From assembly GCA_021809545.1 (NCBI GenBank), contig JAKAYL010000016.1, positions 1 through 32,855 on the forward strand: 32,855 bases of DNA, written 5' to 3'. The notes under the pieces are model-generated. The model saw only the letters and a program-made list of their open reading frames with translations. It made no database searches and was not told the origin of the DNA. Shown here in pieces: positions 27,503-32,855 of this stretch (position 1 is its first letter; each line of letters starts with the position of its first letter). This stretch comes from Thermoplasmata archaeon (GTDB taxonomy: Archaea > Thermoplasmatota > Thermoplasmata > Lutacidiplasmatales > UBA184). The position numbers were made by a program, and so were the translations under genes.

Positions 27503-30500
27503 ATGGAGGGCCAAGTGATCTTCTGGACGGCAGTCCTGCTCCTCGTCCTTCCGGCGGCTCCGGTGAGTTCCTCCGCTATCCACCAGAGGTCCGGCGCATT
27601 CCCAGAGTCCTTCTTGGTCCCCGCCCCATCTTCTTCTCCCGCAGCCAGCTTTCTTACGGCGAGCAATCTCACGTGGAATTACTCCATCGCTCACACCCCG
27701 CGGGTCAGCCTTCTGGGGAGTTGCGGTAGGCAGCAGGCCGCCATGGCCGCCGACGGACCGTTCGCCGTGGTCTTTGTCAGCGCCTTCACCGGAGCCAGCT
27801 TCTCGTGCACCGCCTTCGACTACGCAGCCCGCACTCTGAGGTACAACGAGACCAACAACACATGGTGGACCGTGACGAGTGCGGTGCATCCTCCTCCACT
27901 CGCGAACTTCTCCCTTGCCTCCGACACCGGCTATTCGGGAGGGGTCGCGGTGCTCTTCGACGGAGAGAACCTCACCACGAGCCAACCCTACAACGGCACC
28001 TGGCTCTTCTACTTCGGGAACTCCACCTGGAGGCAGATCCATCCCGCCGGCGGACCGAGCGCCCGCTCGCTTGCGGCCGTGGCCGCCGATCCTACCACGA
28101 ACCATCTCCTTGTGATCGGAGGGGTCAATTTCACCTCCGGCTCTGACGACGCCGACTGGTGGGACCTCAACCTATCGGCCGACACCTGGAGTTACGTCGG
28201 GAGCGCACCTCAGATGATTCCCGGGACTTCCCGCCTCTACGGAGCGTCCCTCCTCTCGAACGGAACCGGGAGATTCCTTCTCTTTGGGGGATGCTCCTCC
28301 CTCATCACCACCAGTTGCTCCAACCTTACGGCCGACCTGTACGCCACCTCTGGAGGAGGTTGGGGGTACGCGTTGAACACGACCGAGGGGCCCGCGCCGC
28401 GCGCCTTCGCGAGCTGGCTGTGGGACCCCGCACAGAGGTTCGCCCTGCTCTTCGGTGGGGAGAGACTGGAGACGACCCCCACCACCGTTCTCGGTGACAC
28501 CTGGGTGTTCCTCCCCGGGCGGGACCAGTGGGTCCGCCAATCCACCCCCCCGACCCCGTCCACGGCGCGATACCTGGCCGCTGCCTCTTGGCTGGACAAC
28601 CCCGCGAACGAGACCGGACTGTTGGTCGGCGGACTTTCGTCGGTCGCTCTGAAGAACCTATCGTGGCGGATTTCGCCGACCATCGACGTCACCGTGAACG
28701 TGACCAACAGTTCCGGAGGACGCGTGCCCGGTGCCAATGTCACCGTGTTTTCCGACGGGTACCGGTGGACCGGGGTGAGCAACGCATCGGGGGTCGCCTA
28801 TCTTCCCCAGGTAGCCTCCGGACCGCTCGAGATCGTCACGAATGCCACGGGATACTACCAGAACACTACCTTCCAGACTGTTCCGCCTGCCGGCTCCCTC
28901 GTCACGACCGCCCGACTGGTCCCACTTCCGATCCTCCGGGTCCGGACCTTCGAAAGGACAACCCTCGGGACGAACTACCTCGGAGCGGTGGATCTCCTGT
29001 GGAACGGCAGCACTCCAGCCATCGGCACCTCGGACTCCCGTGGGTACTGGAATCACACGGCGTGGCACGGGGGTCCGGTCAACGTGACGGGACAGAAACG
29101 GGGGTACTCCTCGACAACCAATTCCACCACGTTGCCCACCACCGGGGTGAGCTACCTCAACCTCACCCTCCGGCAACTGTCGCCGGCGAACCTGAGCGTC
29201 CGCGTGATCAGCACCGTCGCCGTCCCGATCGCGGGAGCGGTCACCCAAGTGTCCAACCTTTCGCAATCGATCGCGCTCCAGAACATCTCCGACAACAAGG
29301 GGTATGCCAATTTCACCGGGTTGCCTGGAATCATCAATGTGACGGTGGCGGCCAGCACGAACTTCGGCTTTTACAACAATAGCACCCGCGTGGCCCTGAG
29401 CTCGGGGAACACGACCCATGTCAACTTGACCCTCACCCCCTGGCCGACCCTCCATGTGCGGGTCCTGGGTGGGGTCGACGGAGGGGTCACTCCAGTGGCG
29501 CTGATCGGGGCGAACGTGGATCGGAACGGGACCCTCCTTGGGAGTACCGGGTCCGGAGGTTGGCTCAACGTCACCACCACGACGGGGCAGGCCAACCTCC
29601 TTGCCTTGGCCCAGTTCTTCTATCCGGGGACCTTGTCCGTGACCCTGAACCATACGGGCCCGACAAACGTCACCCTCCTTCTCGTCCCATGGCCGGCGTT
29701 GCACGTGCACGTGTGGGGGAACCAGACCCAAGCGCCGCCGCTTCCCTTACCGGGAGCGCGGGTGGAATCCAACCGGAGCGGGCTGGTGGGGCTGACCAAC
29801 CTCCAAGGCTGGTCGAACACCACGGTGCCGTCGGGGGCCACAGCGCTCACGGTGACGGCCACGGCTTACCGCACGGGCTACCGGAACGTTACCTTGAACT
29901 ACACAGGGATCCTGAATGTCACCTTCTTCCTGAACCCGCTCGTCGGGACCATCCACGTTCACGTTGTCACCACCCTTGCCCCGGACTACCACAACGGGAC
30001 GATCGTCTACCCCCTCTCCTTTGCCACGGTGAACTATTCCTCCGCGACCGGAACGAGCGGTCAGGTCTTCACCAATGGCCTCGGTTGGGCGAATAGCACC
30101 CTCCTCCAAGGCAACTACACGTTCACGGCGTGGAAGTACGGCATGAAACCCGCGCCCAACCTGGGTCCTTTCTTCGTGGGACAGGTCTGGATGAACTTCA
30201 CGCTCTATCCGATCCGGGGGGCGAACGTGAGCGCCCTCGTCCAAGACCGCAACACGAGTGCGCCGATCGCCAACGCCACGGTGGAGGTGGGCCCCTACTT
30301 CTCGGGACAGACGAACCTCAGGGGCTGGGCGAACTTGACCGACATACTCCCTCCCGGACGTTACGAGGTGCTCGCCTACGCACCCGGATACGAGCCGAAC
30401 CAGACCAACGTGAGCCTCACGTTCCATGAGGTGATCCCTCGATTGCTCATCAAGCTCACACCGATACCGCCTCCTCCCTCCAAGCGTGTGCCAGGGAACA

Positions 30501-30640
30501 CCTCCTTCTCCCTGGTCCCGCCTGCGGAACAGTACACTTGGTGGCCCTTCCTCATCCTACCCGTGGTCTTCGCCCTGGGAGCGGTCCTGGTCATCTTGAG
30601 CCAGCGTTCATCCCGGCGCGGGCGCACCGGGGAATCCTGA
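27503..30640 (+). CDS. Secreted, membrane-anchored surface protein: Kelch motifs plus seven carboxypeptidase-regulatory-like repeats, 57 N-glycosylation sequons
   Basis: A 1045-aa protein. Residues 1-25 are a signal peptide (VIFWTAVLLLVLPAAPVSS). About 60-390 is a Kelch-like propeller with blades around LLVIGGVNF, LLFGGCSS, LLFGGERL and LLVGGLSS. About 395-980 holds seven repeats of 80-92 residues of the carboxypeptidase regulatory (Ig-like) type. A linker leads to a membrane helix (1014-1033) and an Arg-rich cytoplasmic tail. I count 57 N-x-S/T sequons. In repeats 2-7 one sequon sits at the same place, G-(Y/W)-x-N-x-T (Asn517, 603, 689, 772, 864, 944). The protein is therefore probably heavily N-glycosylated, as part of the cell surface or an adhesin. 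ATG 27503 is preferred to TTG 27464 because it opens the signal peptide. Its last 33 nt overlap the convergent membrane gene. Confidence 0.88.
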   Translation: MEGQVIFWTAVLLLVLPAAPVSSSAIHQRSGAFPESFLVPAPSSSPAASFLTASNLTWNYSIAHTPRVSLLGSCGRQQAAMAADGPFAVVFVSAFTGASFSCTAFDYAARTLRYNETNNTWWTVTSAVHPPPLANFSLASDTGYSGGVAVLFDGENLTTSQPYNGTWLFYFGNSTWRQIHPAGGPSARSLAAVAADPTTNHLLVIGGVNFTSGSDDADWWDLNLSADTWSYVGSAPQMIPGTSRLYGASLLSNGTGRFLLFGGCSSLITTSCSNLTADLYATSGGGWGYALNTTEGPAPRAFASWLWDPAQRFALLFGGERLETTPTTVLGDTWVFLPGRDQWVRQSTPPTPSTARYLAAASWLDNPANETGLLVGGLSSVALKNLSWRISPTIDVTVNVTNSSGGRVPGANVTVFSDGYRWTGVSNASGVAYLPQVASGPLEIVTNATGYYQNTTFQTVPPAGSLVTTARLVPLPILRVRTFERTTLGTNYLGAVDLLWNGSTPAIGTSDSRGYWNHTAWHGGPVNVTGQKRGYSSTTNSTTLPTTGVSYLNLTLRQLSPANLSVRVISTVAVPIAGAVTQVSNLSQSIALQNISDNKGYANFTGLPGIINVTVAASTNFGFYNNSTRVALSSGNTTHVNLTLTPWPTLHVRVLGGVDGGVTPVALIGANVDRNGTLLGSTGSGGWLNVTTTTGQANLLALAQFFYPGTLSVTLNHTGPTNVTLLLVPWPALHVHVWGNQTQAPPLPLPGARVESNRSGLVGLTNLQGWSNTTVPSGATALTVTATAYRTGYRNVTLNYTGILNVTFFLNPLVGTIHVHVVTTLAPDYHNGTIVYPLSFATVNYSSATGTSGQVFTNGLGWANSTLLQGNYTFTAWKYGMKPAPNLGPFFVGQVWMNFTLYPIRGANVSALVQDRNTSAPIANATVEVGPYFSGQTNLRGWANLTDILPPGRYEVLAYAPGYEPNQTNVSLTFHEVIPRLLIKLTPIPPPPSKRVPGNTSFSLVPPAEQYTWWPFLILPVVFALGAVLVILSQRSSRRGRTGES

Positions 30641-31642
30641 AGGCAGCGGCGGGGCAGCTGGTGCGCCCCGGCCCTCCCATCGCGGGTGAGGGATCGTAGG
30701 GCCAGGCGGAGCGGAACGCAGAGCTCGCCGGGTCATCGCGATGACCAGAAGGACCACCGCGGCGGCAATTCCCATCGCGGGGAGCAGGGCTTGCTCGGGC
30801 CATTCTAACGACACCACGATGAACGTGAGCGTCGTGGCCGCGGTGATGAGGATGGCGGAAAGTCCCGGCAGATGCCGGTACGTGGGTGGCTTGGAGGTGG
30901 ACTGCACCTGCAGGATGCCCAGGGTGCGTTCCCCCACTTGCTCAAGGCTGGGGTCGTACGCCATCGCGCGGCCCATGCCCTGGGTCTCGTTGAAGGGCAG
31001 GGCGGTCCCGGTCCCCGTCTGGGGTCGGAGGACGGGGGCCAGCACTCCCACGAACGCGAGCCCGCCGAGGACCACGAGCGGAGCGGTCATCGCCCCCTGG
31101 AGGGGGAAGGTGGTCACCCCGGCGGAGCCGGGGTAGAGCGCCGTAAGCCCCAGGATGTTGAGGAGCCCCTCCACCTGGGTGATGTTGACCTGGGCGAAGG
31201 CGGCGATGAGCGAGGAGGAATTCACGATGGTGGCGGAGCCCGAGAGCGTGTTGAGGGCAGCTACGAGGACGACCCCGTCCAAGAAGGCGAGCTGGAGCGC
31301 CACGATCCTCTTCCCCGGGGACTCCTCGGTCTGCCAGATCCACGACTCGAGCAGGAAGGGGGAGGCCAGGATGAGCCCGGCCGTGATGTCCAGCCCGACG
31401 CCGCCCAACAGGCTGAAGGCGAAGATCGAGAGGACCCCGAGCGCCACGAGAACCCAGATGCCCGACAGCGAGAGCCAACGGCCCTTCCACGGCGAGAGCT
31501 GAAGCCCGTTGAAGAAGAGGACGACGAGGAAGACCCCCGCGCTCAGCGTATCCCACCCCGAAAAGGAGACCAAGAGAAGATACCCGAGGTAGAGGAAGAG
31601 CGGCAGGATGAGGACCAGGGAGAGGGTCCGGTAGGAGTTCAT
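30608..31642 (-). CDS. Polytopic membrane protein partner of a DUF58 protein
   Basis: A 344-aa protein with about eight hydrophobic segments: five in the first 135 residues, one near 185-205, and two near 262-307. A cytoplasmic-looking Pro/Gly-rich tail of about 35 residues follows. The loop between the sixth and seventh helices (about 210-255) is polar. I recognise no family. Its ATG overlaps the stop of the DUF58 gene by ATGA, so both come from one message. Bacterial and archaeal DUF58 genes usually sit with MoxR ATPases and membrane proteins thought to assemble or fold complexes at the envelope; this may be such a partner. The 3' end overlaps the surface-protein gene by 33 bp, tail to tail. 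Confidence 0.7.
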   Translation of the reverse strand: MNSYRTLSLVLILPLFLYLGYLLLVSFSGWDTLSAGVFLVVLFFNGLQLSPWKGRWLSLSGIWVLVALGVLSIFAFSLLGGVGLDITAGLILASPFLLESWIWQTEESPGKRIVALQLAFLDGVVLVAALNTLSGSATIVNSSSLIAAFAQVNITQVEGLLNILGLTALYPGSAGVTTFPLQGAMTAPLVVLGGLAFVGVLAPVLRPQTGTGTALPFNETQGMGRAMAYDPSLEQVGERTLGILQVQSTSKPPTYRHLPGLSAILITAATTLTFIVVSLEWPEQALLPAMGIAAAVVLLVIAMTRRALRSAPPGPTIPHPRWEGRGAPAAPPLPSGFPGAPAPG

Positions 31643-32855
31643 CGGGCGGCCCCCCAGGCGCGTAGCGTCGAATACAGGCTCAAGACCTTCACCGTCGCAC
31701 CCCGGCGATCGTAGGGCACCACCGGAATGCCGAGACTGCGGAGCGCACGCAGCACCTCCCGGGAATGGGTGCCGTCCATCGTCTGTGCCAGCGCGAGCGT
31801 GCGCTGCTTCGTCTCGGTCGCAGGTGGAGGGTACATCGCGAAGAGCTCGGGGGAGAAGAGGTAGAGCTTGTGCCCACGGGCGGTGAACTTGGCGTAACTG
31901 TCCAGGAGCCCCCGGGTGGGGGGCTGGGCCGAAGCGAAGGCAAAGACGTGCGTACGGTCCTCTAGCGTGCGGCTCAGGAAATCCAAGGCTAACTCGAGGT
32001 CGAAGCGCCCTCTCCCGCTGTTCACCACGGCAAGGGTCTGGAGGAGCTGCGAGATGTTCCTCGCCCCACGCTTCGGGGGAAGGTAGAGCAGGGGGTGGCT
32101 GGGATAGGCGAGCAGGCCGATCCGGTCCTCGCTGTTCATGATGTAGTTGGTCATCAGGGTCGCCGCGTCCACGGCGATGTCCATCGCGTCCTCCCCGAGG
32201 CGCCCGGCCCCCATGAGAGGACCCGAGTCCAGCAGGATGAGGAAGTCCTGACGCATCTCCTGCTCGAACTCCTTCACGTAGAGCTTGCCTTTGGTCGAAT
32301 GCTTCCAGGCGATGCTCCGGAAGTCGTCGGTGGAGTGGTACTCCCGGAGGGAACGGAACTCGGTCCCGTAGCCCCGCTGACGCAGCACGGTCGTGCCGAT
32401 GTATTTCGTGCGGAGGCGCATGGCGAGGTGCCCCGTCGGCATCGAGGAGCTGGAGGGCACCACCGTGAGCTCATGGTGGGTGTTGAGATGGATCGCCCGG
32501 TAGGCAAGTCCGAAGGCGTCATGGGCCACCACGACGGTCGGGCCCAGGAAATAGACTCCCCGGCGGAAGGGACGGAACCCGTAGACGAGGTTGAGGTCCT
32601 CTCCGGGGGCCCACCAGGTGAGGAGACGGGGAGACCCTGCGACCATCTGGAAGGTCTGAGGGAAGAAATCCCAGACCTCCGCGTAGAAGGAAGACCTGCC
32701 CTCGTGGTGGAGCCGGAGGCCCATCAGGCCGAACGCCCGGCGGTTCACCCGGTTCGGCGCCTCGAATCGCTCGACACGGAACCAGGAGGGACCGAAACCG
32801 CGCGTGGACCAGGCGAAGGAGAAGTACTCGGCGGCGACGAAGGAGAGGACCAGCA
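31639..32855 (-). CDS. DUF58 domain protein, 5' end outside the window
   Basis: The frame is open to the window edge and gives 405 complete residues. It begins mid-protein with an apparent membrane segment (VLSFVAAEYFSFAW) and a beta-rich region (FRVERFEAPNRVNRRAF). The DUF58 signature REYHSTDDFRSIAWKHSTK lies in the middle. A von Willebrand A-like fold follows: DFLILLDSG with a MIDAS-like DSG, then ATLMTNYIM, DRIGLLAYP and HVFAFAS. DUF58 proteins commonly partner MoxR AAA+ ATPases, whose gene would be expected upstream, beyond this window. A GTG at 32746-32748 would give a 369-aa protein, but homologous sequence clearly continues before it, so I treat the gene as truncated by the edge. It is translationally coupled to the membrane protein downstream. 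Confidence 0.85.
   Translation of the reverse strand, partial: LVLSFVAAEYFSFAWSTRGFGPSWFRVERFEAPNRVNRRAFGLMGLRLHHEGRSSFYAEVWDFFPQTFQMVAGSPRLLTWWAPGEDLNLVYGFRPFRRGVYFLGPTVVVAHDAFGLAYRAIHLNTHHELTVVPSSSSMPTGHLAMRLRTKYIGTTVLRQRGYGTEFRSLREYHSTDDFRSIAWKHSTKGKLYVKEFEQEMRQDFLILLDSGPLMGAGRLGEDAMDIAVDAATLMTNYIMNSEDRIGLLAYPSHPLLYLPPKRGARNISQLLQTLAVVNSGRGRFDLELALDFLSRTLEDRTHVFAFASAQPPTRGLLDSYAKFTARGHKLYLFSPELFAMYPPPATETKQRTLALAQTMDGTHSREVLRALRSLGIPVVPYDRRGATVKVLSLYSTLRAWGAAR

Follow-up and report, generated by a model that had tools for sequence, protein, structure and literature searches.

Sequons in register, very probably under selection, along the stalk of a Kelch-headed surface protein from a Thermoplasmata archaeon

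A contig of a Thermoplasmata archaeon (NCBI GenBank assembly GCA_021809545.1, contig JAKAYL010000016.1), analysed over positions 1 to 32,855 of its forward strand (32,855 nucleotides, hereafter the window), encodes a surface protein of 1045 amino acids (27503-30640, + strand, as are all features of this protein given below), in which a Kelch β-propeller is followed by a stalk of seven repeats and a predicted membrane helix. This protein carries 57 N-glycosylation sequons, and in six of the seven stalk repeats one of them is found at the same position, within the motif G-[W/Y]-x-N-x-T. An original prediction, made from the DNA alone, had proposed that these sequons are under selection. The conservation of the sites in homologues, the linkage between Asn and the Ser or Thr that follows it, and the rarity of the motif in bacterial copies of the fold support this proposal, and selection of the sequons is considered very probable. 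Attachment sites, and not merely the protein fold, appear to have been preserved by evolution. The explanation as a whole, that of a glycosylated Kelch-headed stalk whose sequons have been selected site by site, is held to be fairly likely.

The open reading frame has 1045 amino acids when counted from its ATG, and 1058 from an upstream TTG. With a sequon defined as N-[^P]-[ST], 57 sequons were counted (40 NxT and 17 NxS) among 70 Asn overall, the same number that had been reported previously. When the residues were shuffled 10,000 times, a mean of 13.3 sequons was obtained (standard deviation 3.2), with a maximum of 28. In the numbering used here for the repeats, the conserved Gly is 0, the aromatic residue +1, the Asn +3 and the Thr/Ser +5. 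The in-register motif predicted for repeats R2 to R7 was found in all of them, as GYWNHT (Asn517, 29042-29059), GYANFT (Asn603, 29300-29317), GWLNVT (Asn689, 29558-29575), GWSNTT (Asn772, 29807-29824), GWANST (Asn864, 30083-30100) and GWANLT (Asn944, 30323-30340), the codons of the six Asn lying between 29051 and 30334 with spacings of 86, 86, 83, 92 and 80 residues. When the sequons of R2-R7 were placed at random within their repeats, six of them fell in one column in 0 of 20,000 draws. The pattern G[YWF].N.[ST] also matches Asn625 (GFYNNS) and Asn795 (GYRNVT), which belong to a second G-[YF] at another position of the repeat.

Five stalk repeats also share, on their last strand, the sequon N-[LVF]-T, a further in-register set that was absent from the original prediction: Asn553 (NLT, 29159-29167), Asn641 (NLT, 29423-29431), Asn722 (NVT, 29666-29674), Asn805 (NVT, 29915-29923) and Asn898 (NFT, 30194-30202). 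The first repeat, R1, which adjoins the head, has no +3 sequon in the host protein or in its three close homologues. A sequon-less first repeat was considered as a rule of the family and rejected, the sequon being present in 14 of 20 first repeats and in 68 of 92 others (p 0.78).

Those close homologues come from three genomes of the same genus (G002, G003 and G004, the host genome being G000) and are 54%, 51% and 41% identical to the stalk protein, respectively. In comparisons with them, the Asn of a sequon was kept in 129 of 171 cases versus 7 of 39 for other Asn, and the Ser/Thr of a sequon was kept as Ser or Thr in 137/171 versus 210/471 for other Ser and Thr. Considering complete sequons, those at +3 were kept in 17 of 18 comparisons (G004 has Pro in place of Asn944; the other five sites are kept in 3/3 homologues), the last-strand set in 12 of 15 (Asn553, Asn641 and Asn805 in 3/3, Asn722 in 2/3 and Asn898 in 1/3) and all others in 94 of 138. 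It could be argued that glycan density in general has been selected, and that the in-register sites are merely those tolerated by the fold, a proposal that is compatible with the selection of particular sites and is judged possible but rather unlikely. In its favour, 15 sequons lie in the head and others at many stalk columns, and most of the Asn columns tested are linked to Ser/Thr. However, the +3 column carries a sequon in 82 of 112 family repeats, the next best column doing so in 36, and the almost complete conservation at +3 contrasts with that of the sequons outside both in-register sets.

The stalk protein was matched in 40 of 61 genomes, including the host (33 of the 37 belonging to its family and 7 of the 24 outside this family), many of these matches covering the Kelch part alone. 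The family sample consists of 20 proteins, namely that of the host and full stretches from 19 of the 39 other matching genomes. In the 111 repeats of these proteins, Ser or Thr is present at +5 in 84 of the 84 with Asn at +3, versus 12 of the 27 without it. Since the profile first used had been trained on the counted repeats, the count was repeated with the motif columns masked, leading to 82/83 and 10/28, respectively. The sole exception in the masked run is an alignment artefact, its raw sequence being GYLNVS; in the same run the last repeat of one family protein (raw GWANFT) was shifted by one column and counted as lacking a sequon, and the counts were left unadjusted. Without any profile, x[ST] follows G[FWY]xN in 92 of 97 occurrences, versus 64 of 200 with any other residue in place of Asn. 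Linkage between Asn and Ser/Thr at p < 0.001 extends to 16 of the 18 family columns with at least eight sequons. The Asn of a turn (column 31, T-N-x-x-G) shows none, and is part of a sequon in just 8 of 42 family rows.

Along the complete sequences of the 20 proteins the tendency is the same: of 1073 Asn, 736 belong to sequons, whereas for D, Q, E and K the share with x-[ST] after them is 11-18%. The middle position rarely holds Pro in N-x-[ST] (8 of 744), in contrast to the position after the other Asn (41 of 329; odds ratio 0.08), and the NxT:NxS ratio (479:257) exceeds the T:S ratio (1862:1700). Avoidance of Pro at this position and preference for NxT are the usual preferences of oligosaccharyltransferases.

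An alternative is that the motif is only a matter of fold, a transthyretin-like domain favouring Asn and Thr at these positions, for instance through a hydrogen bond between their side chains, with no glycan involved. To evaluate this, bacterial and haloarchaeal repeats were collected with the masked profile from 11 of the 40 listed matches of a plasmid search (eight bacterial and three haloarchaeal), and other Thermoplasmata were sampled at 30 loci of 30 genomes. Among 129 distinct bacterial repeats, which come from 8 reading frames, Asn is present at +3 in 8 and a sequon in 2; these two are corresponding repeats shared by two Priestia plasmids, so that the bacterial repeats are not fully independent. 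The +3 sequon was found in 0 of 9 haloarchaeal repeats and in 2 of 15 repeats of other host-genome proteins (overlapping loci being counted twice). Of the 64 repeats from other Thermoplasmata, 7 have Asn at +3, and all 7 are sequons. Over all repeat positions, the Asn found in sequons amount to 436/595 for the family, 113/245 for the class sample and 133/570 for bacteria, this last proportion (0.23) being close to the share of Ser and Thr (0.21).

Some features of the motif do belong to the fold, such as the Gly, the hydrophobic residues at +2 and +4 and part of the Thr. Asn is also common on the last strand of bacterial repeats (column 73, 52 of 115 filled rows), although it lies in a sequon there in only 19 of the 52, compared with 36 of 36 in the family. 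Moreover, three bacterial columns hold Asn mostly in N-x-[ST] (column 16, 12/18; column 25, 16/26; column 67, 21/35), and such an accumulation can therefore arise without glycosylation. This speaks against selection as the necessary source of sequons in register. The bacterial accumulation is probably due to the copying of repeats, a process that is disfavoured for the family because of the conservation among homologues and the exchanges between Thr and Ser on the repeat tree (see below). The scarcity of the +3 sequon in bacteria, the linkage in most family columns and its absence at the turn Asn, and the bacterial sequon share lying near the Ser/Thr frequency are all opposed to an explanation based on fold alone, and the avoidance of Pro across whole proteins has no reason in the fold. 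Such an explanation is thus regarded as improbable.

It is also conceivable that the repeats resemble each other due to recent duplication of a glycosylated ancestor, with too little time for the sites to be lost. The repeats are indeed homologous and their counts are not independent: in a tree of the 111 repeats, constructed with the motif columns removed, supported branches hold only 2 independent pairs, a number insufficient for a phylogeny-corrected test of coupling either between Asn and Ser/Thr or between Asn and the aromatic residue, and this must be set against the case for selection. However, the seven stalk repeats are visibly diverged from one another in alignment, and the 17 of 18 +3 sites referred to above are kept by homologues at 41-54% identity. 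On the same tree, the middle position of the Asn-bearing rows shows at least 45 changes, involving 16 residues, while +5 remained Ser or Thr, with at least 19 changes of its own (51 Thr, 31 Ser and one Leu, which is an alignment artefact). Recent duplication is therefore considered very improbable, and selection for the sequons continues to be the preferred interpretation.

The density of sequons in the host genome was estimated from a sample of 133 genes from the window and 13 further stretches, called by means of a simple codon score, the expectation being derived from composition. Genes without a predicted membrane segment contain 77 sequons versus 83.5 expected. Those with one or two segments contain 316 versus 135.9, to which the Kelch-stalk protein contributes 57 versus 13.4, and those with at least three segments contain 128 versus 58.1, of which 53 belong to the frame of AglB, the candidate oligosaccharyltransferase discussed below.

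As regards the exposure of these residues, each of the six +3 Asn occupies the third position of a predicted strand (515-519, 601-608, 687-691, 770-774, 862-868 and 942-948). The share of hydrophobic residues in the family is 80% at +2 and 73% at +4, versus 13% at +3 and 6% at +5, and the respective values in bacteria are 100%, 98%, 44% and 20%. From this alternating pattern, Asn and Thr would point outward. The original prediction had mentioned a case that would invalidate it, with the Asn side chains in the core and the motif explained by the fold alone; the position of the Asn on the strand, flanked by hydrophobic residues, and the rarity of the sequon in bacterial repeats argue against it. 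Two values are less favourable to an outward orientation, since +1 is 83% hydrophobic in the family and the bacterial +3 reaches the 44% indicated. The aromatic residue is located at +2 in bacterial repeats (column 36, Tyr or Phe in 99%) and in those of other Thermoplasmata, and at +1 in the family. A shift of register by one residue was consequently examined, in which the Trp would be the core aromatic and the Asn at +3 would point inward; it was set aside as unlikely, +2 and +4 remaining hydrophobic and +3 and +5 showing the lowest values from +1 to +5. A further point against the shift is that, in both phmmer alignments with carboxypeptidases D and N, Asp lies opposite Asn944, although these matches are weak (E 0.37 and 0.19).

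An aromatic residue precedes the Asn by two positions at all six in-register sites of the protein. In the family, +1 is Trp, Tyr or Phe in 78 of 84 sequon-bearing repeats versus 5 of 27 others (76/82 versus 6/29 in the masked run). This arrangement recalls the enhanced aromatic sequon, F-x-N-x-T, in which the ring is reported to pack on the first sugar, leading to faster folding and higher stability (PMC6152320, PMC7390894), and which was named for reverse turns (PMC4259341). Both have an aromatic residue two positions before the Asn and a Thr or Ser two after it. It has been considered, therefore, that an aromatic residue at +1 could pack on the glycan in the stalk repeats, for which the chances are judged to be about even. 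Several observations weigh against it. The link between aromatic residue and Asn is confined to this strand, and the aromatic residue persists in 5 of the 27 repeats that lack Asn. The +3 sequons of other Thermoplasmata have an aromatic residue at +1 in just 1 of 7. A general preference of the sequons of these proteins for an aromatic residue at -2 was rejected, since, with the sites bearing Gly at -3 set aside, it is found in 93 of 736 versus 40 of 337 (odds ratio 1.07). Furthermore, the enhanced aromatic sequons are engineered and located in reverse turns, whereas the stalk motif is natural, repeated and placed in a predicted strand. Because of this last difference the motif is called here aromatic-sequon-like, and is not counted as a member of that class, although it may work in a similar way. 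Given that the link is restricted to one strand, is kept without Asn in some repeats and is absent in other Thermoplasmata, the aromatic residue at +1 may be in part a feature of the fold.

The overall architecture agrees with the membrane-anchored, multi-domain stalk and the Kelch head of the original prediction. A predicted N-terminal hydrophobic helix (residues 5-18, 27515-27556) is a likely signal sequence. The head (residues 53-394, 27659-28684, with 15 sequons in residues 1-393) matches PF24681 with 54.9 bits, above the 50-bit cut-off, and its model matches the Kelch domain of LZTR1 (VIA Z 33.5, root-mean-square deviation 2.5 over 297 residues). The stalk repeats, delimited with the repeat profile, are R1 (residues 394-475, 28682-28927), R2 (476-560, 28928-29182), R3 (561-648, 29183-29446), R4 (649-731, 29447-29695), R5 (732-815, 29696-29947), R6 (816-905, 29948-30217) and R7 (906-990, 30218-30472), R5 and R6 being also supported by the structure model. 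A predicted transmembrane helix (residues 1014-1035, 30542-30607), recognised by its hydrophobicity and followed by a basic tail, closes the protein.

The whole protein matches CarboxypepD_reg (PF13620) in four stretches, with 80.7 bits versus a cut-off of 32.3. R7 is the sole repeat that passes it by itself (34.5 bits), R1 (31.6 bits) and R3 (27.5 bits) being below; in a six-frame search, the single repeats besides R7 were below the Pfam cut-off or had no match among those listed. The whole protein, modelled with AlphaFold2 using the 20 family sequences, gave a mean predicted local distance difference test score (pLDDT) of 78.3 and a predicted template modelling score (pTM) of 0.46, so that the relative placement of the domains is uncertain. 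The model contains the N-terminal helix (5-18), propeller strands (56-375), a chain of β domains and the helix at 1014-1035. R5-R7, modelled alone with a mean pLDDT of 89.1, match duck carboxypeptidase D (Z 13.3, root-mean-square deviation 1.4 over 79 residues), human carboxypeptidase N (Z 12.9, the carboxypeptidases D/N ranging from 12.4 to 13.3), CnaB-type domains, and SlaB of Sulfolobus acidocaldarius (8qox_B, Z 11.8, root-mean-square deviation 1.7 over 82 residues); the 50 fold matches listed mostly cover R7, and the others R6 or R5-R7. Taking these matches into account, the modelled repeats are β-sandwiches of the CarboxypepD_reg or transthyretin-like type. The repeats had been described as Ig-like, a label that fits only loosely, since the matches are mainly transthyretin-like or CnaB-type and no immunoglobulin domain is named among those listed, although such a fold outside the listing is still possible.

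One STT3/AglB candidate, bearing the sequence SWWDYG, stands out in the host genome. Its frame (G000, contig C45, about 42130-48714) has 2195 residues. It begins with ten membrane segments, as counted by simple hydropathy, and continues with the catalytic motif, a tail of approximately 1350 residues carrying 47 sequons and CarboxypepD_reg matches (106.3 bits), and a C-terminal membrane segment. PF02516 was found with 27.1 bits in the genome search, over the cut-off of 24.5; in the hmmscan of 2117 residues, PF02516 (18.3 bits) and an AglB_core-like family (20.2 versus 27) were both below cut-off, and TIGR04154 reached 170 versus a cut-off of 450. The tail, used as a query of plasmid sequences, had no match at E 0.001. 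Long AglB frames (1931-2409 residues) were found in 54 of the 58 matching genomes among 61 searched, and in a sample of the phylum, where 73 of the 77 genomes searched had a match, 44 had frames of a size consistent with a fusion (1863-3277 residues). Five genomes of the phylum that pass the AglB family cut-off have frames of 910-1004 residues. WWDYG and a C-terminal segment were present in five relatives examined, and in two other genomes no WWD frame was found within the AglB stretches examined.

The host genome comprises 1.96 Mb in 83 contigs and is 98.98% complete. Homologues of the stalk protein were matched in Thermoplasmata archaeon FK3.bin56, YF1.bin117 and DBS1-1.bin134 (best segment 55%, 52% and 36%), bins that, from their names, we take to come from acid mine sites. 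The gene is convergent with those of a 344-amino acid protein and a DUF58/VWA protein (window positions 30608-32853, - strand), an arrangement kept in three relatives together with the homologue, with weak matches in a further locus. The 344-amino acid neighbour has no Pfam match at E 0.001, and this conserved context gives no hint to the function of the stalk protein. Six further host frames (569-2077 amino acids) match the Kelch part, and Kelch surface proteins may therefore form a paralogous set.

From these data, a mechanism can be proposed. The protein would be a membrane-anchored glycoprotein in which seven transthyretin-like domains hold the Kelch propeller off the membrane, and the head could plausibly bind a protein or glycan ligand, by analogy. 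In six of the seven domains, the strand that follows the conserved turn ending in Gly would place +2 and +4 into the sandwich, and the aromatic residue (+1), the Asn (+3) and the Thr or Ser (+5) together on the outer face. After export, AglB would be expected to glycosylate the stalk Asn outside the cell, and the +3 site would be kept for this reason. Glycosylation of these sites is judged likely from the sequence evidence. By analogy, a high occupancy would also be likely, since the archaellin of Oxyplasma (Thermoplasmatales; O. meridianum) is reported to carry glycans on 8 of its 9 sequons, the ninth facing inside and being likely inaccessible (PMC12448462), and 27 of the 31 glycosylation sites predicted in SlaA have been confirmed (PMC10903991). 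The aromatic residue might then pack on the first sugar in the manner of an enhanced aromatic sequon, and each sequon-bearing domain would have a glycan clamped at one place, which could stiffen and shield the stalk. Stiffening, or shielding from acid, is somewhat less likely than the packing itself, and the number of glycans has been reported to be uncorrelated with growth pH (PMC12448462), which does not favour a role against acid. A further and more tentative idea is that the clamp is encoded in the domain unit, the glycan being a structural part of the domain, and that the oligosaccharyltransferase itself is fused to an array of the same fold; this is thought rather doubtful.

All the parts of this protein are of a known kind: a Kelch propeller, a CarboxypepD_reg stalk and archaeal N-glycosylation. 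The stalk repeats share profile (in the whole protein and R7) and fold with the transthyretin-like domains of carboxypeptidases D/N and of CnaB-type pilin repeats, and differ from bacterial CarboxypepD_reg repeats, whose aromatic residue is at +2, in having it at +1 together with the +3/+5 sequon. SlaB, a membrane-anchored S-layer protein of the acidophile S. acidocaldarius with 14 predicted N-glycosylation sites (PMC10903991), is likewise anchored in the membrane and has one domain that shares the fold of the stalk. However, SlaB is trimeric and combines a long coiled-coil helix with three β domains, in contrast to the seven domains, Kelch head and single membrane helix of the stalk protein. 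The resemblance to SlaB lies in only one stalk domain. In the titles and abstract openings of the papers listed for aromatic sequons, AglB and Thermoplasmata, no description was found of this protein or its motif, or of a natural aromatic-sequon-like module repeated in register in a stalk of this kind.

The test of linkage applied in this analysis, which asks whether Asn at a column demands Ser or Thr two residues later and compares the result with bacterial copies of the fold, offers a simple means of telling selected sequons from motifs of the fold. Since the sites are in register, the position and the density of N-glycans could be separated experimentally in one protein. If the proposed mechanism is true, the stalk would offer a natural, repeated and testable example of an archaeal aromatic sequon. 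Thermoplasmatales are reported to have a dense, unordered and likely glycoprotein coat of unknown composition (PMC12448462), and the stalk protein may be a candidate for the kind of protein forming such a coat in the S-layer-poor members of the class Thermoplasmata.

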